A stretch of DNA of 64,000 nucleotides, from positions 1 through 64,000 of the forward strand of contig NZ_JAVAMQ010000006.1 in NCBI RefSeq assembly GCF_030732095.1, in the 5' to 3' direction. The notes under the pieces are model-generated. The model did no database searches and was not told the origin of the DNA. It saw only the letters and a program-made list of their open reading frames with translations. The DNA is from Paracoccus spongiarum (lineage in GTDB: Bacteria > Pseudomonadota > Alphaproteobacteria > Rhodobacterales > Rhodobacteraceae). Shown in pieces: positions 45,157-59,518 of the stretch; position 1 is the stretch's first letter, and every line of letters starts with the position of its first letter. The position numbers and the translations under genes were made by a program.

Positions 45157-46410
45157 TCACCTGCCCCATGTCTCGAAGGCTGCGCGCAGGTCGGCGTCGC
45201 GTTCCACCGCCTCGCGCGCGCTCAGCCCCTCGCTGGCGGCCTGCCACGCATGGCGGATCGCGCGCACCCCGGCGGCCGGCCCGCCCGGATGGCCGTGGAT
45301 GCCGCCGCCGCCCAGATACATCATGTCCAGCGTGCCCCCGGTTCGCGCCCATGTCTCGAAGGCCTGTCCGCCCCACTGGCCCGAACAGACCACCGGCAGC
45401 GCCCGGTCGCGATCGCTGAAGATCGGGCTGGTGACATCGACGAAGGACCGCAGGAAGCTGTCGTCGCCTTCCCAGTATTTCGCGCCGATCCCGTTGACCT
45501 GGAACTGGTCAACGCCCAGCAGCCGCCAGATCTTCTGATAGGGGCGGAAGTCGTAGCCCAGCCCCGGATGGCGGGTCAGCACGTCCCAGCCGTTGCGATG
45601 GGCGTGAAGGCACAGCTGCGACCGCTTGCGCAGGAAGGCCATGCCGCCCGGCCCGATCGAGTTGATGTTCACCACCGCCGCGGTTCCGCCCCCCGCCACG
45701 ACGAGGTCGTGGTTCGTCATCATCCGGTCGGGATCGGCCGCCGAGATGCCGAAGGCATACATCACCTGCCGCCCGGTCCGCTGGGCGTGGTCGCGAATCA
45801 CCGGCATGATCGCCTCGACGCGCGCGGCCAGCGGCGAATAGGCGGGCGACATCATCTTCTCGTCGTCCTTGATGAAATCGACGCCCGCCTCGCACAGCCG
45901 GCGGACCACCTCGGCCGTCTCGTCGGGGCCGAGGCCCAGCGACGGCTTGATGATCGAGGCGATCATCGGCCCCTGCGCGACCCCCATCAGCCGCCGCGAG
46001 CCCTCGATGCCGAATTGCGGGCCGGGAAGCCCGGCAAAGGCATCGGGCAGGTCGAGGTCGAGGATGCGGATGCCGGTCACGCCGCGGACCGAGAATACCC
46101 CGCCCATCGTCACCGTCATCAGCGCGGCAAGGTCGGTCCCGATCGAGTCCAGCGGATAGTCGATGACGACATCGGCGCGGCGGAACGGGCCGGGATGGCC
46201 GCCGGCCTCGGGCAGCGAGGGAACGGGCAGGGGGGCGATCTCGGTGACCGACACGACCCGCGCGGCATGGCGGGCGCGCAGCGCCGCCGTCTCGCCGGGC
46301 AGCGGCGTGAAGGTTCCGGTCGACTGGTCTGCGGCGATCTTCGCGGCCATCGCCTCGGGGTCGCCCGGCGTCTCGATGCGGTAGGTGACGCGGATCATCT
46401 GCTTGCTCAT
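45157..46410 (-). CDS. oiaX: RuBisCO-like protein, probable 3-oxo-isoapionate-4-phosphate transcarboxylase/hydrolase
   Basis: 417 residues. Fold and key residues of the RuBisCO large subunit: Lys155 in ASIIKPSLGL and Lys181-Asp183-Glu184 in VDFIKDDEKMM, the carbamate and metal site. The H-x-H-R loop reads LCLHAHRNG, and loop-6 and phosphate regions are altered (VVCSGQWGGQ), so it is not a CO2-fixing enzyme. Its partners (a DUF1537 kinase, PGDH-like oxidoisomerase, Gfo/Idh dehydrogenase and large lactonase) point to OiaX of the D-apiose pathway, which splits the phosphorylated acid into 3-phosphoglycerate and glycolate. Overlaps the kinase gene by 4 bases. The symbol is inferred from context. 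Confidence 0.82.
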   Translation of the reverse strand: MSKQMIRVTYRIETPGDPEAMAAKIAADQSTGTFTPLPGETAALRARHAARVVSVTEIAPLPVPSLPEAGGHPGPFRRADVVIDYPLDSIGTDLAALMTVTMGGVFSVRGVTGIRILDLDLPDAFAGLPGPQFGIEGSRRLMGVAQGPMIASIIKPSLGLGPDETAEVVRRLCEAGVDFIKDDEKMMSPAYSPLAARVEAIMPVIRDHAQRTGRQVMYAFGISAADPDRMMTNHDLVVAGGGTAAVVNINSIGPGGMAFLRKRSQLCLHAHRNGWDVLTRHPGLGYDFRPYQKIWRLLGVDQFQVNGIGAKYWEGDDSFLRSFVDVTSPIFSDRDRALPVVCSGQWGGQAFETWARTGGTLDMMYLGGGGIHGHPGGPAAGVRAIRHAWQAASEGLSAREAVERDADLRAAFETWGR

Positions 46411-47789
46411 GGCCGAACCGCTTCCTTGCGGGGGCCGCCGCCATCGCGGATCCAGCCGAAATAATCCGGCGAGCCCATCTGCCCGCCTTTCAACGCGATC
46501 TCCAGCCCGTCATGGACCCCCACGCCCGATCCCCGGCACAGCGCCGCGCCGGGAATGGTGGGGGCGATGGCAACCAGCGCCTGCAGGCCCAGCCGGCGCA
46601 TCGCATGGCCCGAGGTGTCGCCGCCCGAAATCACCGCCCGGCGGATGCCCGATCCGCGCAGCACCCGGTCCAGCACGTCTCCCAGCGCCTCGCCGATGCG
46701 GCGGTTGGCGGTCTCGGGATCCAGCCCGCTTGCGGCGAGGGCGTCGCGGAAGCCCGCGACCTGATCGCCCTGGCCGCCGGCCGCCGAATGCACCAGCGGG
46801 CTTTGTCCAGCCCGCGCCGCATCCAGTGCCAGCCGCGAGAGCCGTGCGATCTCGGCCGCAAGGTCGGCCACGCTGCCACAGGCCGCACGGGCCTCGAAGG
46901 GCAGCAACGCGAAGCCGTTGCGTCCCGCCCAGTCCAGCTGCGCCGCCGTCACCGGCGACAGCGACCCCGATACCGCGGCGATGCGATCCACCGCGCCCGC
47001 CGAGCCCGGCGACGGCGCGGGCCCGATCTCGCCGCTGTCCTGCCAGTGCCGGACCAGCGCGTATTCGATGCCCTGGCTGCCGGCGACCAGCCCCATCCGC
47101 GCCCGGTTGTCCCAGATCAGCCGCCCCGCCGCCGCCTCGCTGGCCGCGTCGATGCTGTCGATCGACAGGATCCGCGCCCCGCCGGCCAGCGCCGCGTCAA
47201 GCCGGGCCTGCGGGTCATGGGCCAGCGCCTCGAGGTCGATCAGCGCGCCGGGCAGGGCGGTCTGCCCGGCCAGATGCGCCAGCAGGTCGGCTTCGTGCAT
47301 CGGCGTTGCCGGGTGATGCGCCATGACCGGATGGCGATCCAGCCGGAACACCCCCTCGGGCGCGCCGGCGAACAGATGGCCGAAGGCCTGATAGCGGCGC
47401 ATCGCCGGCGCCGCCGTCAGCAGCGGCACGGCCGCCGAGGGGCGCACCGTCAGCGCCGCCTCGATCGCCGCGCCGATCGAGCCGGTGCCGGGTGCCGAAT
47501 CGAAGGTCGAGCAGATCTTGTAGTGCAGCAGCGCGGGTCGCAGCGCGTCCAGCAGGGCGAACTGCGCCGGCAGGGTCCGCGCCATCCAGTCCGGCCCATG
47601 TGCCCGCGCCGTGGTGGCAAGGCCGACCCCCGCGGCCCCCGCGAACCGCGCCAGCAGCGCCCCCGTCGGGGGTTCGGTGAACAGCACCGAGGGAAGCCCC
47701 GCGAAATGCAGCACCTCCATCACCGCCGCCGAGCCGGTGAAGTCGTCCCCCAGCCACGCCACGCGGGGATGTGCAGCGGTGTGTGTCAC
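46407..47789 (-). CDS. oiaK: DUF1537 four-carbon-acid-sugar-kinase family protein, probable 3-oxo-isoapionate kinase
   Basis: 460 residues from a GTG at 47789. N-terminal substrate domain with WLGDDFTGSAAVME and ICSTFDSAPGTGSIG; C-terminal ATP domain with RRAVISGGDTSGHAMRRLG and the end block GGQMGSPDYF. This is the OtnK/DtnK/OiaK kinase family. The GTG has AGAGAGG 6 bases upstream. An ATG at 47819 would put the start almost on the predicted promoter, so I rejected it. Overlaps the RuBisCO-like gene, which fits kinase-then-lyase order of the OiaK-OiaX route. Substrate is inferred from neighbours. Confidence 0.8.
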   Translation of the reverse strand: MTHTAAHPRVAWLGDDFTGSAAVMEVLHFAGLPSVLFTEPPTGALLARFAGAAGVGLATTARAHGPDWMARTLPAQFALLDALRPALLHYKICSTFDSAPGTGSIGAAIEAALTVRPSAAVPLLTAAPAMRRYQAFGHLFAGAPEGVFRLDRHPVMAHHPATPMHEADLLAHLAGQTALPGALIDLEALAHDPQARLDAALAGGARILSIDSIDAASEAAAGRLIWDNRARMGLVAGSQGIEYALVRHWQDSGEIGPAPSPGSAGAVDRIAAVSGSLSPVTAAQLDWAGRNGFALLPFEARAACGSVADLAAEIARLSRLALDAARAGQSPLVHSAAGGQGDQVAGFRDALAASGLDPETANRRIGEALGDVLDRVLRGSGIRRAVISGGDTSGHAMRRLGLQALVAIAPTIPGAALCRGSGVGVHDGLEIALKGGQMGSPDYFGWIRDGGGPRKEAVRP

Positions 47790-47822
47790 GGGCGCCTCTC
47801 TTTCGCTTGACTCGGTCATATA

Positions 47823-47851
47823 ATTATCATCTCATCATACCAGTTATGCAA
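47823..47851 (-). promoter_or_regulatory. Candidate promoter of the oiaK-oiaX unit
   Basis: On the leftward strand, -35 TTGCAT (47851-47846) and -10 GATAAT (47828-47823) with a 17-base spacer that is filled by the 20-bp candidate operator. A perfect TATAAT at 47819-47824 on the + strand may be the -10 for the rightward apnO unit, though its -35 is weak. The region is unusually AT-rich for this genome. Confidence 0.5.
47826..47845. promoter_or_regulatory. Candidate GntR operator, site 1 (oiaK/apnO divergent promoter)
   Basis: ATCATCTCATCATACC followed by AGTT, matching site 2 at 51543-51562 in 19 of 20 bases. It lies between -35 and -10 of the oiaK promoter. The leftward strand has TGGTATGAT, which resembles the TGGT half-site of UxuR-like FadR-family operators. 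Binding is inferred; the likely binder is the GntR protein at 58775-59518. Confidence 0.6.
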
Positions 47852-47873
47852 GCTGATTCCTGAGGAGGGAATG

Positions 47874-48704
47874 ATGACCAAGGTGGCTCTGCTCGGGGCG
47901 GGGGGAAAGATGGGCGTGCGTCTGGCGACCAATCTCGCCAGGACCGATTTCCAGGTGGCGCATGTCGAGATCGGCGAGGCCGGACGGGCCCGGCTGAAGG
48001 CCGAGGTCGGCGTGGACTGCATCGATCAGGACAAGGCGCTCGACGGGGCCGATGTGGTCATCCTCGCCGTGCCGGACACCGTCATCCGCAACGTCGCGGC
48101 GGCGGTGGTGCCGGGCCTCGCCCCCGGCACGATGGTCGTCATCCTTGACGCCGCCGCGCCCTTCGCCGGGCATCTGCCCGACCGCGCGGACATCACCTAT
48201 TTCGTGACCCATCCCTGCCACCCGCCGATCTTCAACGACGAGGACACCCCCGAGGGCCGCGCGGACCATTTCGGCGGGGTCGCCGCCAAGCAGGGCGTGG
48301 TGAACGCGCTGATGCAGGGTCCGCGCGAGCATTACGAACTGGGCGACCGCATCGCCCGCGCCATCTATGCGCCGGTCGCGCGCAGCTACGAGGTGACGGT
48401 CAAGCAGATGGCGATGCTGGAGCCCGGCCTGTCCGAGACCGTCTGCGCCTCGCTGCTGGTGGTGATGCGCGAGGCGATGGACGAGGTGGTGGCCCGCAGC
48501 GGCGTCAGCAAGGAATGTGCGCGCGACTTCCTGCTGGGCCACATGAACATCCTTGGCGCGGTGATCTTCGAGGAACGGCAGGGCCAGTTCTCGGACGCCT
48601 GCAACAAGGCCATCGAATTCGGCATCCCGATGCTGATGCGCGACGACTGGAAGAAGGTGCTGGAATGGGACGAGGTCGCCGCCAGCATTCGCCGGATCAC
48701 CTGA
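47874..48704 (+). CDS. apnO: PGDH-like NAD-dependent enzyme, probable D-apionate oxidoisomerase
   Basis: 276 residues. Rossmann domain VALLGAGGKMGVRLA (about 4-18), DVVILAVPDTVIRNV, then a helical C-terminal domain typical of phosphogluconate-dehydrogenase-like proteins, with a Cys/His-rich TYFVTHPCHPPIFNDED (about 114-130) that could bind metal. ApnO proteins oxidise and isomerise D-apionate to 3-oxo-isoapionate. Start 47874 is better spaced from GAGGAGGG than 47871. First gene of the apnO-TRAP unit and divergent from oiaK. Assignment depends on context. Confidence 0.78.
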   Translation: MTKVALLGAGGKMGVRLATNLARTDFQVAHVEIGEAGRARLKAEVGVDCIDQDKALDGADVVILAVPDTVIRNVAAAVVPGLAPGTMVVILDAAAPFAGHLPDRADITYFVTHPCHPPIFNDEDTPEGRADHFGGVAAKQGVVNALMQGPREHYELGDRIARAIYAPVARSYEVTVKQMAMLEPGLSETVCASLLVVMREAMDEVVARSGVSKECARDFLLGHMNILGAVIFEERQGQFSDACNKAIEFGIPMLMRDDWKKVLEWDEVAASIRRIT

Positions 48705-48717
48705 GATCCGCATGACC

Positions 48718-48736
48718 GCGGGCCCGGACGGCCCGC
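48718..48736. other. Hairpin between apnO and the TRAP binding-protein gene
   Basis: GCGGGCC and GGCCCGC around CGGAC, 14 bases after apnO. May be a partial terminator or an mRNA-stability element for the transporter genes. Confidence 0.4.
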
Positions 48737-48763
48737 CCAGACCATATCCCAGGGAGGAATGAC

Positions 48764-49738
48764 ATGACACGATTGATGACGGCTGCCTCGGTCGCGGCAA
48801 TGCTGGCCAGCGCCAGCCCGCTGCTGGCGCAGACGACGATGAACCTGGCCTTCACGCCGCCGGCCGAGTCGCATTATGGCGATGCCGGCCGCGCCTTCGC
48901 CGAGCGGATCGCGGATCTGTCGGACGGGGCCTTCGAGGTCTCGCTGCGTCCCGCCGGCGCCCTGGGCGGCGAGCGCGACGTGATCGAGGGTCTGCAGATC
49001 GGCACCGTCGAACTGACCATCTCGTCCACCGGGCCGATCGGCAATTTCGTCCCCGAAGTCTATGCGCTGGATTTCCCGTTCCTGTTCAAGGACTACGACA
49101 GCGCCCACCAGATTCTCGACGGCGAGATCGGGCAGGAGCTTCTGGCCAAGTTCGAGCCGCATGGCATCATCGGGCTGGCCTGGGCCGAGAACGGCTTTCG
49201 CCACATCACCAACTCGATCCGTCCGATCCGCGAGCCCGCCGACATGGCCGGGCTGAAGCTGCGCACCATGGAGAACGAGGTGCATATCGCGGCCTTCCGC
49301 GCGGCGGGCGCGGCGCCGACCCCGATGAGCTGGACCGAGGTGCTGACCTCGCTGCAGCAGGGCACCATCGACGGGCAGGAAAACCCCATTCCCATCGTGA
49401 CCGCCAACAACATGTGGGAAATCCAGAAGAACATCAGCCTGACCGGGCATGTCTATTCGCCCGCGGTCGTGGCGATGTCGAAGATCCACTGGGACAACCT
49501 GACCGAAGAGCAGCAGGGCTGGTTCGTCGAGGCCGCGCAGGCGGCCGCCGCCGCCTCGCGCGCAACCGTGGCCGAGAACGAGGCCTCGGGCATCGCGCTG
49601 ATGAAGGAGAACGGCATGGATGTCGTCGAGGACGTGGACAAGGCGGCCTTCGCCGCCGCCGTCCAGCCCGCCTATGACGAATTCGCCGACCGTTACGCGC
49701 CCGAGCTGATCCAGCGGATCAAGGACGCGCAGAAATAG
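48764..49738 (+). CDS. TRAP transporter solute-binding protein (DctP family)
   Basis: 324 residues. Signal peptide about 1-22 ending LLAQ. DctP-type periplasmic binding protein with the conserved LKLRTMENEVHIAAFRAAGAAPTPMSWTEVLTSLQQGTIDGQENP (about 163-208), in which the Arg that binds the substrate carboxylate sits in LKLRTM. So the ligand is an acid, plausibly a sugar acid. Preceded by AGGGAGG. Next to apnO, so D-apionate or a related acid is the natural candidate. Confidence 0.92.
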   Translation: MTRLMTAASVAAMLASASPLLAQTTMNLAFTPPAESHYGDAGRAFAERIADLSDGAFEVSLRPAGALGGERDVIEGLQIGTVELTISSTGPIGNFVPEVYALDFPFLFKDYDSAHQILDGEIGQELLAKFEPHGIIGLAWAENGFRHITNSIRPIREPADMAGLKLRTMENEVHIAAFRAAGAAPTPMSWTEVLTSLQQGTIDGQENPIPIVTANNMWEIQKNISLTGHVYSPAVVAMSKIHWDNLTEEQQGWFVEAAQAAAAASRATVAENEASGIALMKENGMDVVEDVDKAAFAAAVQPAYDEFADRYAPELIQRIKDAQK

Positions 49739-49746
49739 GCCGGATG

Positions 49747-49768
49747 GCAGGGCCGTCCGCGGCCCTGC
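49747..49768 (+). other. Strong hairpin after the TRAP binding-protein gene
   Basis: GCAGGGCCG and CGGCCCTGC around TCCG, 9 pairs, between the dctP and dctQ genes. Such hairpins often shield the upstream mRNA and lower downstream output, so more binding protein than membrane protein is made. Confidence 0.55.
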
Positions 49769-49788
49769 CCCTCGCATCGGAGCACATC

Positions 49789-52585
<2,797 letters not shown>

Positions 52586-52591
52586 CCCGGC

Positions 52592-52617
52592 CGGGTCCGG
52601 CCGCCGCGCCGGACCCG
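52592..52617 (+). other. Strong hairpin after the ABC binding-protein gene
   Basis: CGGGTCCGGC and GCCGGACCCG around a 6-base loop, 10 pairs, starting 7 bases after the stop. Same placement as the hairpin after the TRAP binding-protein gene, probably to raise binding-protein mRNA relative to downstream genes. Confidence 0.6.
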
Positions 52618-52640
52618 TCCCCAGCTTTCAGGAACGCATC

Positions 52641-53282
52641 ATGTCCCCTGCGATGACGGCCCTTCTGGCCGGCACGGTGGCGTTTGGCCTGCTGGCCGGC
52701 TGCAAGATCGTGCCCAACCCCGACCCCGACAGCGCGGCCGCCCCGCTGGACGACGACCAGCGCATGGCGCTGCTGGCGGCCGAGATCTTCGACAGCCGCC
52801 TTCCTCAGCATGTGGCCCGGCACGCGGTTGATCCGGCGACGCTGCGGGCCGCGCTGGCCCAGGGCCTGGACGTGGCGGGGGCTGCGCATGGCCTGCGGCC
52901 GGCCTCCGAGGGCAGCCCGTGGAACTTCATCCTGCGCGCCGAGGGCAAGGTAGTCGAGGCCGACCGCGCCTCGCGCGCCGCCAGCCTGCTGCTGGACAGC
53001 GACGGCGACGGGCAGGGCGACCTGACCGTGCAGCTTGGGCCGGTGGTCCGTGGCACCGCGCTGCGCGACGCGCTGGACTTCCTGAACTTCACGGATTTCC
53101 GCGACCAGATCGAATTCGCCAAGCTGGCGCGGGCGCTGAACGACCAGGCGCATGACCGGCTGGCGTTGCCCCAGGGCGACCTGACCGGGCTGCGGCTGGC
53201 GGTCGAGGGGGCGATGACGCTGACCTCGGCCGATGCCGCATGGGTCATGGTCCCCGTGGCGTTGCAGGTGGCCGCGCCATGA
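52641..53282 (+). CDS. DUF2291 family periplasmic lipoprotein
   Basis: 213 residues. A lipoprotein signal ends in LLAGC with Cys21. The body, with VRGTALRDALDFLNFTDFRDQIEFAKLARALNDQAH, matches DUF2291, a lipoprotein family of unknown role that recurs in ribose-type ABC operons. Probably helps the transporter at the inner membrane. Overlaps the ATPase start by 4 bases. Confidence 0.85.
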   Translation: MSPAMTALLAGTVAFGLLAGCKIVPNPDPDSAAAPLDDDQRMALLAAEIFDSRLPQHVARHAVDPATLRAALAQGLDVAGAAHGLRPASEGSPWNFILRAEGKVVEADRASRAASLLLDSDGDGQGDLTVQLGPVVRGTALRDALDFLNFTDFRDQIEFAKLARALNDQAHDRLALPQGDLTGLRLAVEGAMTLTSADAAWVMVPVALQVAAP

Positions 53283-54805
53283 GCCCGGGCCTGCAGATCC
53301 GCGGCGGCAGCAAGGTCTATCCGGGCACGCAGGCGCTGAAATCGGTCGATTTCGACCTGCACATGGGCGCGGTCAACGTGCTGGTCGGCGAGAACGGCGC
53401 CGGCAAGTCGACGATGATGAAGGTGATCGCCGGCGTCGAGCAGCTGACCTCGGGCGAGATCCTGATGGATGGCCGCCCGGTGCATTTCAGCGGCCCCGAC
53501 GACGCCCGCCGCCACGGCATCGGCATCGTGTTCCAGGAGTTGAACCTGTTCCCGAACCTCAGCGTGGCCGAGAACATCTTCCTGGGCCGAGAGCGCACCC
53601 GCGCCGGCATCGACATCGACACGGCCGCGCAGCGCCGCGAGACGCGGGCGCTGATCGCCCGGCTGGAACAGGACATCGACCCCGACACGCCGGTGGGCGA
53701 CCTGCGGGTGGGCCAGCAGCAGATCGTCGAGATCGCCCGCAGCCTTGCGCAGGACGCCCGCATCCTGATCCTCGACGAGCCGACCAGCGCCCTGTCGGCG
53801 GCCGAGGTCGAGATCCTGTTCCGCGTCATCGACGATCTGCGGCGACAAGGCGTGGGCATCGTCTACATCTCGCACCGGCTCGAGGAACTCCTGCGGATCG
53901 GCGACCACATCACCGTGCTGCGCGACGGGCGCATCACCGGCGCCCGGCCGATGGAGGGCGTGGACCTGCCCTGGATCGTGCGCAGCATGATCGGCGAGGC
54001 CAGCAAGGACTATGCCAAGTCCGACGACCACCCCTTCGGCCCCGAGGTGTTCCGCGCCGAGGATGTCTGCCTGCCGCGGCCGGGCGGCATGGCCGTGGAC
54101 CATGTGTCGCTGACCCTGCGCGCGGGCGAGATCCTGGGCCTTTACGGGCTGATGGGCGCGGGCCGCAGCGAGTTCCTGGAATGCGTCATCGGCCGGCATC
54201 CGCATGCCGGCGGCCGGCTGTTCGTCGACGGCCGGCCCCTGCGCCATCGCAGCGTCGCGGGCCGCATCGCGCAGGGCATCGCGCTGATCCCCGAGGATCG
54301 CAAGAATGACGGGCTGGTCCAGATCCTGTCGATCCGCGAGAACATGAGCCTGTCCAGCCTGGGCGCGGTCAGCACCGGCTTGCACATGGACCTTGCGGCC
54401 GAGCGGCGGGTGGTGCGCGATTTCGTGCGCCGACTGACGGTCAAGATCGCCTCGATGGAAAACCCGGTCTCCAGCCTCTCGGGGGGCAACCAGCAGAAGG
54501 TGGTGATCGGCAAGGCGCTGATGACCCGGCCCCGCGTGCTGCTGATGGACGAGCCGTCGCGCGGCATCGACATCGGCGCCAAGGCCGAGGTGTTCCGCAC
54601 CATGCGCGACCTGGCCGCCCAGGGGTTGGGCATCCTGTTCGTCACCTCCGATCTCGAGGAACTCATGGCCCTGTCCGACCGGATCGTGGTCATGTCCAAC
54701 GGCCGCGTCACCGGCCGTTTCGAGCGCCGGGACGCCACCGAAACCGACATCGTCGCCGCATCGGCCAAGGGCCATGCCGTCCACGCCAGGGAGCCCGCCG
54801 CATGA
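53279..54805 (+). CDS. Sugar ABC transporter ATP-binding protein (RbsA-like, two ABC domains)
   Basis: 508 residues. First ABC domain: Walker A GENGAGKST (about 37-45), signature LRVGQQQIVEIARSLA, Walker B ILILDEPTSAL. Second domain: variant Walker A GLMGAGRSEF, signature SLSGGNQQKVVIGKAL and LLMDEPSRGIDIGAK. This asymmetry is normal for monosaccharide importers. ATGA overlap with the DUF2291 gene upstream and with the permease downstream. Confidence 0.96.
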   Translation: MSPGLQIRGGSKVYPGTQALKSVDFDLHMGAVNVLVGENGAGKSTMMKVIAGVEQLTSGEILMDGRPVHFSGPDDARRHGIGIVFQELNLFPNLSVAENIFLGRERTRAGIDIDTAAQRRETRALIARLEQDIDPDTPVGDLRVGQQQIVEIARSLAQDARILILDEPTSALSAAEVEILFRVIDDLRRQGVGIVYISHRLEELLRIGDHITVLRDGRITGARPMEGVDLPWIVRSMIGEASKDYAKSDDHPFGPEVFRAEDVCLPRPGGMAVDHVSLTLRAGEILGLYGLMGAGRSEFLECVIGRHPHAGGRLFVDGRPLRHRSVAGRIAQGIALIPEDRKNDGLVQILSIRENMSLSSLGAVSTGLHMDLAAERRVVRDFVRRLTVKIASMENPVSSLSGGNQQKVVIGKALMTRPRVLLMDEPSRGIDIGAKAEVFRTMRDLAAQGLGILFVTSDLEELMALSDRIVVMSNGRVTGRFERRDATETDIVAASAKGHAVHAREPAA

Positions 54806-55860
54806 GCGATATCGCCACCCCCGCCCGCAGCGTCGCACAATCCACCCGCGCCCTGCTGATCCTGCTGAAGGCGCGCACCTTCATCGCGCTGATCCTCGTC
54901 TTCGCCTTCTTCGCCTTCGCCGCGCCCAATTTCATGTCGGCCGCCAACCTGGTCATCATGTCGAAGCATGTGGCGCTGAACGCCTTTCTGGCGATCGGCA
55001 TGACCTTCGTCATCATCTCGGGCGGCATCGACCTGTCGGTCGGCTCGATCGTCGGGCTGTGCGGGATGGTCGCGGGCTGGCTGATCCTGCACGGCATCGA
55101 CCTGGGCCTCGGCTGGTCGATCCAGTTCAACACGGTCGAGATCTGCCTGATCGTGATGGCCGTCGGCGTGGCCATCGGCGCGGTGAACGGCTTTCTCGTC
55201 ACCCGGCTGAACGTGGCGCCCTTCATCGCCACGCTCGGCACGCTGTATGTCTGCCGGGGCGCCGCGATGCTGTTCTCGGACGGGCGCACCTTCCCCAATC
55301 TTGGCGGCAACCCGGACTACGGCTCGGACAGCTTCCGGCTGATCGGGGCGGGCGACGTCCTGGGCCTGCCGGTGTCGATCTGGATGCTGATCGCGGTGGC
55401 GCTGATCGCGGCCTATATCGCGCGGCGAACGCCGCTGGGCCGCTATATCTACGCGGTCGGCGGGAACGAGCGGGCGGCAGCGCTGTCGGGCGTCCGGGTC
55501 GGCTGGATCAAGATGTTCGTCTACATGTTCAGCGGGCTTTGCGCGGCGCTGGTGGGGCTGATCATCTCGTCGCAGCTGGTCGCGGCCCACCCCGCCACCG
55601 GCCAGAGCTTCGAGCTGAACGCCATTGCCGCCGCGGTGCTGGGCGGCACCTCGATGTCGGGCGGGCGCGGCCGCATCGGCGGCACCATCGTCGGCGCCTT
55701 CGTGATCGGCGTGCTGTCGGACGGGCTGGTGATGATGGGCGTGTCGTCCTTCTGGCAGACCGTCATCAAGGGGCTTGTCATCATCGCCGCCGTGGTGGTC
55801 GATCAGGCGCAACAGAAACTTCAGGCCCGCGTCGCGTTGCAGGCCGAGGCAGGAGCGTAG
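54802..55860 (+). CDS. Sugar ABC transporter permease (RbsC-like)
   Basis: 352 residues, about ten membrane segments. Family blocks: GMTFVIISGGIDLSVGSIVGLCGM (about 67-90), FIATLGTLYVCRGAAMLFS, RYIYAVGGNERAAALSGVRVGWIKMFVYM and NAIAAAVLGGTSMSGGRGRIGGTIVGAFVIGVL. Transports a monosaccharide of unknown identity, inferred to be D-apiose. Ends one base before the apsD-type start. Confidence 0.95.
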   Translation: MSDIATPARSVAQSTRALLILLKARTFIALILVFAFFAFAAPNFMSAANLVIMSKHVALNAFLAIGMTFVIISGGIDLSVGSIVGLCGMVAGWLILHGIDLGLGWSIQFNTVEICLIVMAVGVAIGAVNGFLVTRLNVAPFIATLGTLYVCRGAAMLFSDGRTFPNLGGNPDYGSDSFRLIGAGDVLGLPVSIWMLIAVALIAAYIARRTPLGRYIYAVGGNERAAALSGVRVGWIKMFVYMFSGLCAALVGLIISSQLVAAHPATGQSFELNAIAAAVLGGTSMSGGRGRIGGTIVGAFVIGVLSDGLVMMGVSSFWQTVIKGLVIIAAVVVDQAQQKLQARVALQAEAGA

Positions 55861-55861
55861 G

Positions 55862-56878
55862 ATGCTGAAGGGTGCCCTGATCGGATGCGGTTTCTTCGCG
55901 CAGAACCAGATGCATGGCTGGCAGGCCGTCGAGGGCGCGCGGATCGTGGCCGTCTGCGACCGCGACGCGGAGCGCCGCGAGGCCACCGCCCGGCGCTTCG
56001 GCATCGGCCGCGGGCATGACGACGCGGCGCGGATGATGGCCGAGGAGGATCTGGACTTCGTGGATATCGCGACCACCGTCGGCTCGCACCGCCCGCTGGT
56101 CGAGGCCGCTGCCGAGGCCGGCCTGCACGCGATCTGCCAGAAGCCTTTCGCCGAGGCGATGCAGGACGCCCGCGCCATGGTCGCCGCCATGGATCGCGCG
56201 GGGAAGACGCTGATGGTGCACGAGAATTTCAGGTGGCAATCGCCTGTGCGCGCCACCATCCGGGCGCTGCGCGAGGGGGCGGTGGGCCGGCCATTCTTCG
56301 CACGGGTCAGCTTTCGGTCGGGACATGACGTGTTCTCGGGCCAGCCCTATCTGGCGACCGATCCGCGCTTCATCATCCAGGATCTGGGCATCCACATCCT
56401 CGACATCGCGCGGGCGCTGTTCGGCGAGGTGACCGGGCTTGCGGCCAGCACCGCGCGCATCAACCCGGCGATCCGCGGCGAGGACGTGGCCACGATGCTG
56501 CTGGATCACGCATCGGGCGTGACCACGGTGGTCGACTGCTCTTACGCGACACGCCGCCAGCCCGACACCTTTCCCCAGACCCTGATCGAGATCGACGGAG
56601 ACGCCGGCACGCTGCGGCTGGACGCCGGCTACCGGCTGGTGATCCAGCGCGACGGCCGCGAAGAGGTCCGCGAGGTGGCCCCGCCGGTGCTGCCCTGGGC
56701 GGAACGGCCCTGGCACAACATCCAGGAAAGCGTGCAGATCATCCAGCAGCATTTTGTCGACTGCCTGCGCGAGGGGCGCCCGCCCGAGACCTCGGGGCGC
56801 GACAACCTGGGCACGCTGGCGCTGGTCGAGGCGGCCTATGCCTCGGCCCGCGACGGCAACCGGATCGCGCTTCCATGA
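55862..56878 (+). CDS. apsD: Gfo/Idh/MocA oxidoreductase, probable D-apiose dehydrogenase
   Basis: 338 residues. N-terminal Rossmann domain GALIGCGFFAQNQMHGW (about 4-20); active-site Lys in AICQKPFAEAM; VHENFRWQSP; and the DLGIHILDIARALFGEV segment with catalytic Asp and His. D-apiose dehydrogenase (ApsD) belongs to this family and makes D-apionolactone. The start follows the permease stop by one base, and its end overlaps the ApnL-type gene by 4 bases, so the two consecutive pathway steps are coupled. Symbol from context. Confidence 0.8.
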   Translation: MLKGALIGCGFFAQNQMHGWQAVEGARIVAVCDRDAERREATARRFGIGRGHDDAARMMAEEDLDFVDIATTVGSHRPLVEAAAEAGLHAICQKPFAEAMQDARAMVAAMDRAGKTLMVHENFRWQSPVRATIRALREGAVGRPFFARVSFRSGHDVFSGQPYLATDPRFIIQDLGIHILDIARALFGEVTGLAASTARINPAIRGEDVATMLLDHASGVTTVVDCSYATRRQPDTFPQTLIEIDGDAGTLRLDAGYRLVIQRDGREEVREVAPPVLPWAERPWHNIQESVQIIQQHFVDCLREGRPPETSGRDNLGTLALVEAAYASARDGNRIALP

Positions 56879-58752
56879 CCGGTGGCGCTGACGATGCCCT
56901 GACCGACGCCATCGCCCTTTACGGCACGGACGAGCCCCCGCCCGACCGCCGCCTGCTGTCCTGCGGCCCCGCGCAGGTCACGCTGGAGGATGGGCGGCTG
57001 CGCCATCTGCACGTCGGCGGCCGCGAGGCGATCCGCGGCGTCGCCTTTCTGGTCCGCGACCGCGACTGGGGCACCGTCGCGCCGCGGATCAGCGACCTGC
57101 GAATCGACGAGACGGGGCAGGGCAGCCGTGTCACCTGCCGGGCCGACTACAGGATAGGCGGGGTGCTGTCGGCATGGATCGACCTGCACCTGACCGCGAC
57201 CGGGCTGGAAGCCAGCGCCGTGATGCGGGTGACGGGCGAGGTCTGGACGAACCGCGCGGGCTTCACCATGCTGCATCCGATCCGCGACGTGGCCGGAAGC
57301 CCGGTGACGGTCGAGCATGCCGATGGCACAAGGCGGCAGGCGCGGTTTCCCGACCTGATCGAGCCCTGGCAACCCTTCTGCGACATCGCCGCGCTGACCC
57401 ATCAGGCCGGCGACTGGCGGATCGACTGCCGGTTTCAGGGCGATGTCTTCGAGATGGAGGACCAGCGCCAATGGGGCGATGCGTCCTTCAAGACCTACAA
57501 CCGGCCGCTGGCGCTGCCCTGGCCCTATCGGCTGGCCGAGGGCGAGCTGCCCCGGCAATCCGTCACCATCCGCTGGCATCGCCAGCCGCAGAGACAGGCG
57601 CGTGCGCAGGCCGCGCCCGGACCCGGACCGACGCCCGGACCGACGCCCGGACCGACGCCCGGACCGGGGCCCGGCCCGGCGCCCGACCTGCCGCGCTTTC
57701 CGCAGACCGCCCTGGTGATGACCGGGGCCGATGCCCGCCGCGCCGCCGGGACGCCACAGGAACTGGCGGCCATCGCGCCGCAGCGGCTGCTGTGCCATCT
57801 GGATGCCAGCCGGGGCGACATTGCGCCCGATCTGCGGGCCTTCGCGGACCTGCAGGCAGTCCTGCCGGATCTGGCGATGGATCTGGAACTGATCGCGCTC
57901 TGCGCGCCGGAGGGCGACCCGGATGCCGAGTTTTGCGCCCATGCGCGGGCGCTGGCAGGTTCGGGGCTGCGGGCCGCCTCGGTGATGGTCACGCCCGCCG
58001 TCGATCGCCAGTCCACCCCGCCGGGATCGCCCTGGCCGCCCTGTCCGCCGCTGGACCGGATCGCCGATGCCGCCCGCCGCGCCTTTGGCGGCCTGCGGCT
58101 TGGCGGCGGGGTGGCCAGCTTCTTTCCCGAACTGAACCGCAAGCCGCCGCCGGTCGGAGCGCTGGACTTCGTCAGCCACGGGCTGTGCCCCATCGTCCAT
58201 GCCGCCGATGACCTGTCGGTGCTGGAAACGCTGGAGGCGGTGCCGGACATCCTTGCCTCCGGACGGGCCATCGCGGCAGGGCTGGAATACCGGCTCGGCC
58301 CCTCGACCATCGCGATGCGGCAGAACCCCTATGGCAGCCGCACGATCCCGAACCCCGACCGCCGCCGCATCTGCATGGCCGCCGACGATCCCCGCCAGGA
58401 TGCGGCCTTTGGCGCGGCCTGGACGCTGGGGCTGGCCACCGCGCTGGCGCCGGCCGGCCTGACCGTCTGGACGCCTGCCGCGCTTTACGGGCCGCGCGGC
58501 CTCGTGCGGGACGACGGCTCTATGCGCCCGGTCGCCGCGCTGGTTGCGGCGCTTGCGGCGCTGTCGGGACAGCCGGTGCGCGATGCGGTGCAATCCGGCG
58601 GGCTGGCGCGGCTGCATCTGGGCGACAGGCTGTTGCAGGCGAACCTGACCGCAGCGCCCCTGCCGACCGCCGCACACATGCTGGCCGCATTTGCGTGGCG
58701 GTCGGATCATGCTAAGACCTCAAGCCGGCCCGACGGGCCACCAGACGCATGA
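56875..58752 (+). CDS. apnL: Large three-domain protein, probable D-apionolactonase
   Basis: 625 residues. No sign of a signal peptide. An N-terminal beta-rich domain (about 1-240) contains GLEASAVMRVTGEVWTNRAGFTMLHPIR; a TIM-barrel-like central domain (about 265-520) and a smaller C-terminal domain (about 540-625) follow, the layout of ApnL lactonases. It would open D-apionolactone to D-apionate. A low-complexity PGPTPGPT linker lies between domains one and two, from a 12-base tandem repeat. Co-transcribed with the apsD-type gene. Lactonase call rests on size, domains and context, not on a catalytic motif I can name. Confidence 0.72.
   Translation: MTGGADDALTDAIALYGTDEPPPDRRLLSCGPAQVTLEDGRLRHLHVGGREAIRGVAFLVRDRDWGTVAPRISDLRIDETGQGSRVTCRADYRIGGVLSAWIDLHLTATGLEASAVMRVTGEVWTNRAGFTMLHPIRDVAGSPVTVEHADGTRRQARFPDLIEPWQPFCDIAALTHQAGDWRIDCRFQGDVFEMEDQRQWGDASFKTYNRPLALPWPYRLAEGELPRQSVTIRWHRQPQRQARAQAAPGPGPTPGPTPGPTPGPGPGPAPDLPRFPQTALVMTGADARRAAGTPQELAAIAPQRLLCHLDASRGDIAPDLRAFADLQAVLPDLAMDLELIALCAPEGDPDAEFCAHARALAGSGLRAASVMVTPAVDRQSTPPGSPWPPCPPLDRIADAARRAFGGLRLGGGVASFFPELNRKPPPVGALDFVSHGLCPIVHAADDLSVLETLEAVPDILASGRAIAAGLEYRLGPSTIAMRQNPYGSRTIPNPDRRRICMAADDPRQDAAFGAAWTLGLATALAPAGLTVWTPAALYGPRGLVRDDGSMRPVAALVAALAALSGQPVRDAVQSGGLARLHLGDRLLQANLTAAPLPTAAHMLAAFAWRSDHAKTSSRPDGPPDA
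57625..57666 (+). repeat. 12-base tandem repeat in apnL (three and a half copies)
   Basis: Three exact GGACCGACGCCC units (57625-57660) plus half a unit, giving a Pro/Gly/Thr linker near residues 251-264. In frame and in a domain boundary, so expected to be tolerated and variable between strains. Confidence 0.9.
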
Positions 58753-58774
58753 CCCAACCCGCGACGGAACCGCG

Positions 58775-59518
58775 ATGAGAAAAGACGATCCCTCGACCGG
58801 CCCCGACAGGATCGTGCGGCGCAAGCTGTCGGACCAGGTGTTCGAACGCCTGCGCGAGCTGATGGCCAGCGGCGAATTGCCGCCCGGTGCGCCGATGCCC
58901 TCGGAGCGCGACCTGATGGAGCGGTTCGGCGTCGGCCGCCCGGCCGTGCGCGAGGCGCTGCAGCACATGCACACGATGGGCCTCATCACCATCAGCCATG
59001 GCGAGCGCAGCCGGGTCAACGAACTCAGCGCCGACAGCGTGCTGACGCGGGTCGATGACGTGGCCCGGATGCTGCTGTCGTCAGAGCCCGAACAGCTGGA
59101 GCATCTGAAGATGGCCCGGCGGATGTTCGAATGCGGGCTGGTGCGGGTCGCGGCGGCCAGCGCCGGGCCTGCGGATGTGGCGGACCTGCGCGATCTTGTG
59201 GCGCGGCAGGCGGGCTGCATCGGCGATGCCGAAAAATTCGTCACGCTGGACATGGCCTTTCACAGCCGCATCGCCGCGGTCTCGGGCAACCCGATCCTGG
59301 TGGCGACCAGCCATTCGATGCTGCGCTGGCTGTTCCAGTATCACGGCGTCCTGCTGCACTGGTCGGGAAACGAGGACAAGACCCTTGTCGAGCATGGCCA
59401 GATCGTCGACCTGATCGAGGCCGGCAAGTCCGAAGGTGCGGTGCGCGCGATGGAGGCGCATCTGAACCGCTCGAACCTGCTTTATGCGCATGGCAACATG
59501 CGCGCGGCCGGCCTGTGA
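58775..59518 (+). CDS. GntR-family transcriptional regulator, FadR/FCD type
   Basis: 247 residues. Winged helix at about 20-85 with LSDQVFERLRELMASGELPPGAPMPSERDLMERFGVGRPAVREALQHMHTMGLITI; the FCD effector domain (about 95-235) has the helical layout with Asp/His metal-type residues in LDMAFHSRIAAVSGN and VEHGQIVDLIEAG. Likely represses the apiose genes and is relieved by a pathway acid or phosphate. It lies 22 bases after apnL, probably co-transcribed. Candidate targets are the operator sites at 47826 and 51543. Confidence 0.9.
   Translation: MRKDDPSTGPDRIVRRKLSDQVFERLRELMASGELPPGAPMPSERDLMERFGVGRPAVREALQHMHTMGLITISHGERSRVNELSADSVLTRVDDVARMLLSSEPEQLEHLKMARRMFECGLVRVAAASAGPADVADLRDLVARQAGCIGDAEKFVTLDMAFHSRIAAVSGNPILVATSHSMLRWLFQYHGVLLHWSGNEDKTLVEHGQIVDLIEAGKSEGAVRAMEAHLNRSNLLYAHGNMRAAGL

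Follow-up and report, generated by a model that had tools for sequence, protein, structure and literature searches.

Which RuBisCO-like protein (RLP) closes D-apiose catabolism in Paracoccus spongiarum, and does a single gene island encode the whole route? The island occupies 45157..59518 of the window, which is the whole 64,000-nucleotide stretch of DNA that was analysed. The original prediction listed an RLP, a kinase, dehydrogenases, a lactonase-like protein, two transporters, and a GntR regulator here, and every gene was located and found intact. Each named part is an uninterrupted gene of full length lying at or close to its stated position, and several likely start codons fall within the longest mechanical open reading frame. 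The island borders show no sharp change in a composition profile, and a tRNA scan found no tRNA at the island. The D-apiose pathway is already known, and the island belongs to a known kind. With a probability of about 0.8, it is a D-apiose regulon in which OiaX makes L-erythrulose 1-phosphate, which then goes to two isomerases whose genes lie on a different contig.

The RLP is encoded at 45157..46410 on the reverse strand and contains PF00016. As the original prediction proposed, it scores above the cut-off of the curated equivalog model for OiaX (NF042437, 743.6 bits vs 700). In a 31-row tree, whose OiaX rows come from the window, 13 of the 80 named loci, and 5 loci of Paracoccus, the protein falls inside a 19-row OiaX group with support of 100/100. 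Two sister RLP groups and the RuBisCO of Paracoccus lie outside this group; long branches meet between one sister group and RuBisCO, leaving the OiaX branch untouched. MtnW, the methionine-salvage RLP, shares the RuBisCO superfamily, but the window protein is far under the MtnW cut-offs (NF007095, 156 bits vs 409; TIGR03332, 120 vs 513.6). Scores for models of RuBisCO forms are also far below cut-off. Neither models nor tree gave the grouping with MtnW/enolase or another clade that the original prediction had set against its own claim.

OiaX forms L-erythrulose 1-phosphate, and its sister, OiaT, forms 3-phosphoglycerate and glycolate. The window RLP is predicted to decarboxylate 3-oxo-isoapionate 4-phosphate, an assignment of product that draws on the model name, the EC name, and general background knowledge. 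According to PMC11747546, Rhodobacteraceae strain LCG007 has the same five enzyme steps, the last being the matching EC 4.1.1.121 decarboxylase, and grows on D-apiose. The original prediction ended the pathway in 3-phosphoglycerate and glycolate, whereas both NF042437, by its description, and EC 4.1.1.121 denote a decarboxylase. Passages of the literature on erythrulose with apiose do not name the OiaX product, and searches under these gene names gave unrelated acronyms only, among the matches listed.

The upstream enzymes are encoded on the forward strand. The ApsD-like D-apiose dehydrogenase (55862..56878) is a Gfo/Idh/MocA protein whose nearest solved chain is 5uhw (427 bits; the next solved chain reaches 102), which we take to act on apiose. 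An inositol dehydrogenase, the outcome named beforehand as contrary to an apiose role, is not favored, with TIGR04380 at 103 bits vs a cut-off of 355 and 5uhw the nearest chain. The ApnL-like D-apionate lactonase (56875..58752) misses the curated equivalog NF049900 (628.7 bits vs 750); two other Paracoccus copies are also under this cut-off and two from Hyphomicrobiales are over it. The predicted ApnO-like D-apionate oxidoisomerase (47871..48704) is a PGDH_C family member with PF16896 at 227 bits and 5t57 as the nearest solved chain (423 bits); the curated-model matches to the window proteins include no ApnO model. Among solved structures, the dehydrogenase and the ABC binding protein are closest to homologues from Agrobacterium radiobacter and Rhizobium etli; what the solved relatives of island proteins bind or act on is presumed here. 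These two homologues, the OiaX model, and the RLP and kinase trees uphold the assignment to D-apiose and the OiaX identity of the RLP. Plant cell walls as the source of apiose find no depolymerase support, as PF13204 (apiosidase), the only apiose-releasing family searched, has no match in the genome.

The OiaK-like DUF1537 kinase (46407..47819, reverse strand) contains PF07005 and PF17042. It is the sole PF07005 match in the whole genome, so no second OiaK candidate is present elsewhere. It scores 440.6 bits on the curated OiaK equivalog model, NF042436, vs a cut-off of 700. This model looks narrow because all six other OiaX-neighbour kinases tested are also under the cut-off (438-492 bits). 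A kinase adjoining a sister RLP scores 536 bits on the OiaK model, above the window kinase. In a 31-row kinase tree (L026 and L063 left out, having no full-length extract), the window kinase sits within a set of 12 OiaX-neighbour kinases with support of 100/99, and E. coli YgbK, a single row on a long branch, falls outside. Taken together, the OiaX-neighbour kinases do not come out as a single group (3 changes), and the tree resolves no link between them and the kinases of sister RLPs. A 3-oxo-tetronate kinase was rejected (126 vs 441 bits), with the tree also against it. The OiaK identity originally proposed holds in the grouping of the kinase and its distance from YgbK, and does not extend to the curated cut-off.

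Two importers are present on the forward strand. The TRAP block (48764-51539) is made up of a DctP solute-binding protein (48764..49738), a small permease (49744..50265, with a start that may be at 49789), and a large permease (50262..51539). The ABC importer (51644-55860) contains a sugar-binding protein that probably binds D-apiose (51644..52585), a DUF2291 lipoprotein (52641..53282; PF10054), an ATPase (53279..54805), and a permease (54802..55860). The last gene, at 58775..59518 on the forward strand, encodes a NanR-like GntR/FCD regulator (NF003011, 289.4 bits, above the cut-off of 260).

This regulator is the probable controller of the island and would act at two near-identical copies of a 20-bp operator-like site, whose exact form is found nowhere else in the genome. 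One copy, ATCATCTCATCATACCAGTT (47826..47845, forward strand), lies in the 51 bp that separate the kinase gene from the divergently transcribed ApnO gene. The second, ATCATCTCATCATACCTGTT (51543..51562, forward strand), is upstream of the ABC importer. Among the 80 named OiaX loci, which represent the best 80 of 551 encoded relatives, 40 contain the core, TCATCATACCWGT. The site offers a way to map apiose regulons.

The isomerases LerI and DerI are encoded by adjacent genes on contig C12, in a cluster that also holds an adjoining aldolase, phosphatase, and transketolase. We take this cluster, from its make-up, to be of the erythritol (ery) type. DerI meets the curated model NF051858 (243.8 bits vs 240). 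The LerI-like protein matches PDB 11ef, named L-erythrulose-1-phosphate isomerase, at 464 bits, vs 173 for the best triosephosphate isomerase; its NCBIfam matches are triose-phosphate isomerase models only, including NF000722 (429 bits vs a cut-off of 293). According to PMC10733421, LerI and DerI together turn L-erythrulose 1-phosphate into erythrose 4-phosphate. The island was said to have no step missing; these two tetrulose-phosphate isomerases sit outside it. It is likely not complete by itself, with the last two needed enzymes encoded elsewhere in the genome.

Neighbours of OiaX were sought with the window proteins among the same best 80 of 551 relatives (tblastn, E 1e-6 or better, more than 40% of the query). 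Within ~10 kb, a kinase match is found in 77/80 loci, GntR in 75/80, ApsD in 63/80, ApnO in 60/80, and ApnL in 59/80. Weak matches occur among these, with GntR at 26-29% in five loci and ApsD at 25% in one. LerI and DerI lie within ~10 kb of OiaX in 27/80 and 25/80 loci, respectively. Some loci end early at contig ends, and the shares lean to close relatives because only the best 80 of 551 were used. Since the same neighbours recur across OiaX loci, the gene set is not a chance assembly.

Genome counts support a hand-off from the island to the isomerases. In Paracoccus, all 23 OiaX genomes carry DerI and LerI, found overall in 50/125 and 51/125 genomes, respectively (hypergeometric p 1.4e-11, no species-tree correction). 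In the family, DerI is in 11/11 OiaX genomes vs 37/395 overall (p 1.1e-12, no species-tree correction); 10 of the OiaX genomes are outside Paracoccus, across 8 genera. The DerI counts take in matches of at least 239 bits in the genus and at least 220 bits in the family; weaker RpiB-family matches fall outside them, among others those in sister-RLP genome G108 (split, 79 and 23 bits) and in G388 (168 bits). Genomes with a sister RLP and no OiaX have DerI in 0/12 (genus) and 2/44 (family) cases; family sister RLPs may be undercounted, because at most four candidates per genome were scored. Two of these 44 genomes have a stop within the RLP match. Sister RLPs were divided into two by bit score only at the family level, and those with at least 404 bits have DerI in 2/27 genomes vs 11/11 for OiaX (Fisher p 6.5e-8).

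Other readings of the locus deserve weight. It is very unlikely that the RLP is an OiaT-type transcarboxylase/hydrolase yielding 3-phosphoglycerate and glycolate in a self-complete island. The superfamily and neighbours are shared, and a sister RLP is found in apiose-type islands, yet the tree, in which the sister RLPs stand in for OiaT, splits those proteins from OiaX at 100/100. The two tested sister RLPs reach 429.7 and 390.3 bits on the OiaX model, which the window protein passes. DerI also accompanies OiaX in every genome counted and is rare in sister-only genomes. It is highly improbable that the island serves a different branched sugar or sugar acid, for example in a hamamelose-type pathway, and has recruited apiose enzymes to that end. 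PMC10176493 cites an RLP that acts in a pathway for D-hamamelose, and the TRAP importer hints at an acid taken up as a further substrate. Against this, ApsD, ApnL, ApnO, and the relatives of the ABC binding protein, by their presumed ligands and substrates, all point to apiose, and the identical enzyme set of LCG007 goes with growth on that sugar.

Plant-associated strains may also merely gather sugar clusters, so that OiaX and the isomerases co-occur with no metabolic hand-off. The two are never close in the 23 Paracoccus genomes (different contigs in 19/23, at least 183 kb apart in 4/23, one OiaX copy per genome compared), and the LerI/DerI cluster of P. spongiarum has no operator-like site. 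Shared ecology could add to the co-occurrence. Nevertheless, this explanation is unlikely, as sister-RLP genomes do not have the link and LerI and DerI adjoin OiaX in other genomes.

The preferred reading is thus a D-apiose regulon with an OiaX ending. Gene content, model scores, trees, co-occurrence, and repeated sites were observed directly; each reaction, transported ligand, and regulatory step is one that we infer. The ABC importer would bring the substrate in, and the TRAP importer is perhaps for a free acid. ApsD would oxidize apiose to a lactone, which ApnL would open to D-apionate. ApnO would then form 3-oxo-isoapionate by oxidation and hydroxymethyl migration. After the kinase adds a phosphate, OiaX would release CO2 to give L-erythrulose 1-phosphate, and LerI and DerI would convert this to D-erythrose 4-phosphate. 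From there, the aldolase, phosphatase, and transketolase of C12 could channel it to the pentose-phosphate pathway. Weighing against this reading are the scores of the kinase and the lactonase below their curated cut-offs, the higher OiaK score of the kinase adjoining a sister RLP, and the pass of the LerI-like protein on a triose-phosphate isomerase model.

Carter et al. reportedly described the OiaX branch of D-apiose breakdown in 2018. That branch, also represented by LCG007 in PMC11747546, shares ApsD, ApnL, ApnO, a DUF1537 kinase, an OiaX-type RLP, an ABC importer, and GntR with the island. It differs here in that the kinase and lactonase are below curated cut-offs, an extra TRAP importer is present, and LerI/DerI are outside the island. 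OiaT-type islands (Paraburkholderia sprentiae, L116; Rhodobacteraceae SC52, L117; the OiaT name is inferred) have like upstream gene families around the RLP. Their RLP is in a separate group, such genomes are mostly without DerI, and the operator-like core is absent from both compared loci. The erythritol-type cluster supplies both isomerases acting on L-erythrulose 1-phosphate, but is a separate C12 locus that has a kinase, a dehydrogenase, an importer, and regulators of its own, among them a DeoR-type regulator beside the isomerase genes.

We lean toward a wider reading, in which OiaX islands are plug-ins that need pre-existing tetrulose-phosphate isomerases, in Paracoccus those of an unlinked erythritol-type cluster. 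OiaX islands would work only with host isomerases and OiaT islands would be self-sufficient; therefore, host isomerases would decide which RLP ending is kept, and the GntR operator core would mark the OiaX regulon across Rhodobacterales and Hyphomicrobiales. The end products reported for the RLP pathway are corrected here. Completeness judged from one island can mislead: here the missing steps lie in a cluster that is not linked to it and belongs to a different sugar. The strict co-occurrence (23/23 and 11/11) presents a simple, testable genetic dependency between the catabolism of apiose and that of erythritol.

The D-apiose island at 45157-59518 is composed of two divergent gene runs on either side of a 51-bp gap, and all protein families listed in the original prediction are present. 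The minus-strand run encodes a DUF1537 kinase (46407-47819) and a RuBisCO-like protein (RLP; 45157-46410), whose genes overlap by 4 bp. The plus-strand run encodes an ApnO-like protein, a TRAP importer, an ABC importer with DUF2291, a Gfo/Idh/MocA protein, a lactonase-like protein, and a GntR regulator. The island thus has both TRAP and ABC importers, whereas in Paracoccus liaowanqingii (G005) these are split over two OiaX islands in one genome, one with a TRAP importer on a mobilizable plasmid (L123) and one with an ABC importer (L029, contig C1).

Predicted to be OiaX, the RLP is assigned as such by sequence comparison. It scores 743.6 bits against NCBIfam NF042437 ("3-oxo-isoapionate-4-phosphate decarboxylase OiaX"; cut-off 700) and, in a 31-row tree, falls within a 19-row OiaX group (support 100/100), with Paracoccus RuBisCO and the two sister groups of RLPs lying apart. 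Its relatives are annotated oiaX in many plasmid records. A methionine-salvage enzyme or RuBisCO was rejected, as scores for those models are far below their cut-offs. A second RuBisCO-superfamily match in the genome (contig C15:32757-33740) has 133 bits to the OiaX model, a score found in many Paracoccus genomes, and the organism may therefore also fix CO2.

The end products were originally given as 3-phosphoglycerate and glycolate. In Carter et al. 2018, the OiaX decarboxylase reportedly yields L-erythrulose 1-phosphate, and 3-phosphoglycerate and glycolate are said to be the products of OiaT; on that reading, OiaX had been given the products of OiaT. NCBIfam also names OiaX a decarboxylase. 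In a Rhodobacteraceae strain growing on D-apiose, the last of five enzymes is assigned EC 4.1.1.121, a decarboxylase (PMC11747546).

The pathway had also been described as having no missing step. Isomerases are required to convert L-erythrulose 1-phosphate to erythrose 4-phosphate, and none was seen among the genes at 45157-59518; candidates for the isomerases LerI and DerI are encoded on contig C12. The genome has one RpiB-family gene and two TIM-family genes, one of which adjoins the RpiB-family gene on C12. The RpiB-family protein scores 243.8 bits on the DerI model, above its cut-off of 240. Its TIM-family neighbor has 464 bits to a solved L-erythrulose-1-phosphate isomerase and at most 173 to triosephosphate isomerases; its NCBIfam name would be triose-phosphate isomerase (429 bits, cut-off 293). 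The surrounding genes encode an FGGY kinase, an FAD dehydrogenase of the glycerol-phosphate type, a protein of the xylose-isomerase type, one regulator of the sugar-binding LsrR/DeoR type and one of the DeoR/GlpR type, a sugar ABC importer with DUF2291, and, at L024:10171-16384 (C12:206170-212383), a transketolase, a class II aldolase, and a fructose-bisphosphatase-like protein. We take this to be the make-up of an erythritol cluster; erythritol-specific models gave no match there except DerI. LerI and DerI convert L-erythrulose 1-phosphate to erythrose 4-phosphate, according to PMC10733421. The transketolase, aldolase, and fructose-bisphosphatase-like protein beside the pair could carry erythrose 4-phosphate onward via sedoheptulose bisphosphate.

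Among 125 Paracoccus genomes, OiaX (above the model cut-off) is found in 23, LerI in 51, and DerI in 50 (239 bits or more; all DerI counts leave out weaker or broken RpiB-family matches). Both isomerases occur in 23/23 OiaX genomes (hypergeometric p 1.4e-11, kinship ignored). Taking one OiaX copy per genome, OiaX and DerI are on different contigs in 19 and at least 183 kb apart in 4. Among 395 family genomes from 351 genera, OiaX exceeds the cut-off in 11 genomes, and DerI, counted from 220 bits upward, is present in 37, including all 11 OiaX genomes (p 1.1e-12, kinship ignored). Ten of these OiaX genomes lie outside Paracoccus, across eight genera, and three of the ten (G150, G499, G520) have DerI within 10 kb of OiaX. 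With a sister RLP and no OiaX, DerI is found in 0/12 Paracoccus and 2/44 family genomes. When family sister RLPs are restricted to those with at least 404 bits, a range that includes the Paracoccus relative of RLPs from apiose-type islands, the count is 2/27 (Fisher p 6.5e-8 vs 11/11, kinship ignored). Within ~10 kb of OiaX, LerI is found in 27 and DerI in 25 of 80 named loci, the best 80 of 551 relatives. From these distances and counts, the isomerases are linked to OiaX in some lineages and are encoded in trans in Paracoccus.

The kinase is the single PF07005 (DUF1537) match in the genome. Its proposed identity as OiaK stands in part: it lies within a 12-row set of OiaX-neighbor kinases (100/99), but its score on OiaK, its best model, is 440.6 bits, below the cut-off of 700. 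All six other OiaX-adjacent kinases tested also miss this cut-off (438-492 bits). The OiaK name is borne by a Paraburkholderia kinase of a sister-type island, and a Paracoccus kinase adjoining a sister RLP reaches 536 bits; the model may be centered on sister-type islands. OiaX-neighbor kinases taken together are not one group, and the kinase tree does not fix their link to sister-RLP kinases. A tetronate-type kinase was rejected, as Escherichia coli YgbK falls far outside the 12-row set.

The ApnL-like protein (56875-58752) scores 628.7 bits against an ApnL cut-off of 750. Two other Paracoccus copies are also below 750 (634 and 650); Mesorhizobium and Brucella copies are above it (947 and 1043). 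The protein has a low-complexity Pro/Gly/Thr stretch with PGPT repeats, coded in frame. The ApsD-like protein has 55% identity to Agrobacterium radiobacter oxidoreductase 5uhw, and the ABC binding protein 82% to Rhizobium etli RHE_PF00037.

Allowing up to three mismatches, a search of the window for a 20-bp site, ATCATCTCATCATACCWGTT, gave two matches, each of them exact: one lies in the gap between the kinase and ApnO genes, the other upstream of the ABC importer. None of 100 shuffles gave a match. Genome-wide, the 14-base core of this site is matched exactly at two places, both in the island, and with a mismatch once more, on contig C89. The core TCATCATACCWGT is found in 40 of the 80 named OiaX loci (best 80 of 551 relatives; backward control 0). 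For the shorter CATCATACC, 48/54 matches are <400 bp upstream of an ApnO, ABC binding protein, OiaX, or kinase match, and all 11 short divergent kinase/ApnO gaps looked at contain it, including the window's. Neither the C12 isomerase locus nor any of the six sister-RLP loci tested has it. We infer that the NanR-like GntR protein would bind this operator-like site.

Related loci elsewhere vary in content. Three Paracoccus loci (L032, L033, L034; RLP at L032:9510-10754) carry RLPs of a second sister group, which score 386-390 bits on the OiaX model, each with a DUF1537 kinase and a TRAP importer. L032 and L034 have a glyoxalase-family protein, L032 has a KDPG aldolase, and these stretches have no ApsD, ApnL, or ApnO match. 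In Rhizobium giardinii, R. leucaenae, and R. lentis (L106, L107, L109), OiaX is found with LerI, DerI, an ABC permease relative, and a distant DUF1537 kinase (33-34%), but nothing near OiaX matches ApsD, ApnL, or ApnO; there may be another route into the OiaX substrate. An Acidimicrobiales MAG (Actinomycetota; L068) has an OiaX of 67% identity with LerI and DerI close by, which suggests either inter-phylum transfer or mis-binning of the contig.

Plant cell walls had been proposed as the apiose source. The genome has no match to the PF13204 apiosidase, so growth on polymer-bound apiose is without support here, and it is simpler to suppose that free apiose or apionate is taken up. The island is well supported as an ordinary member of a known pathway, with its products corrected, and likely depends on an unlinked pair of steps.
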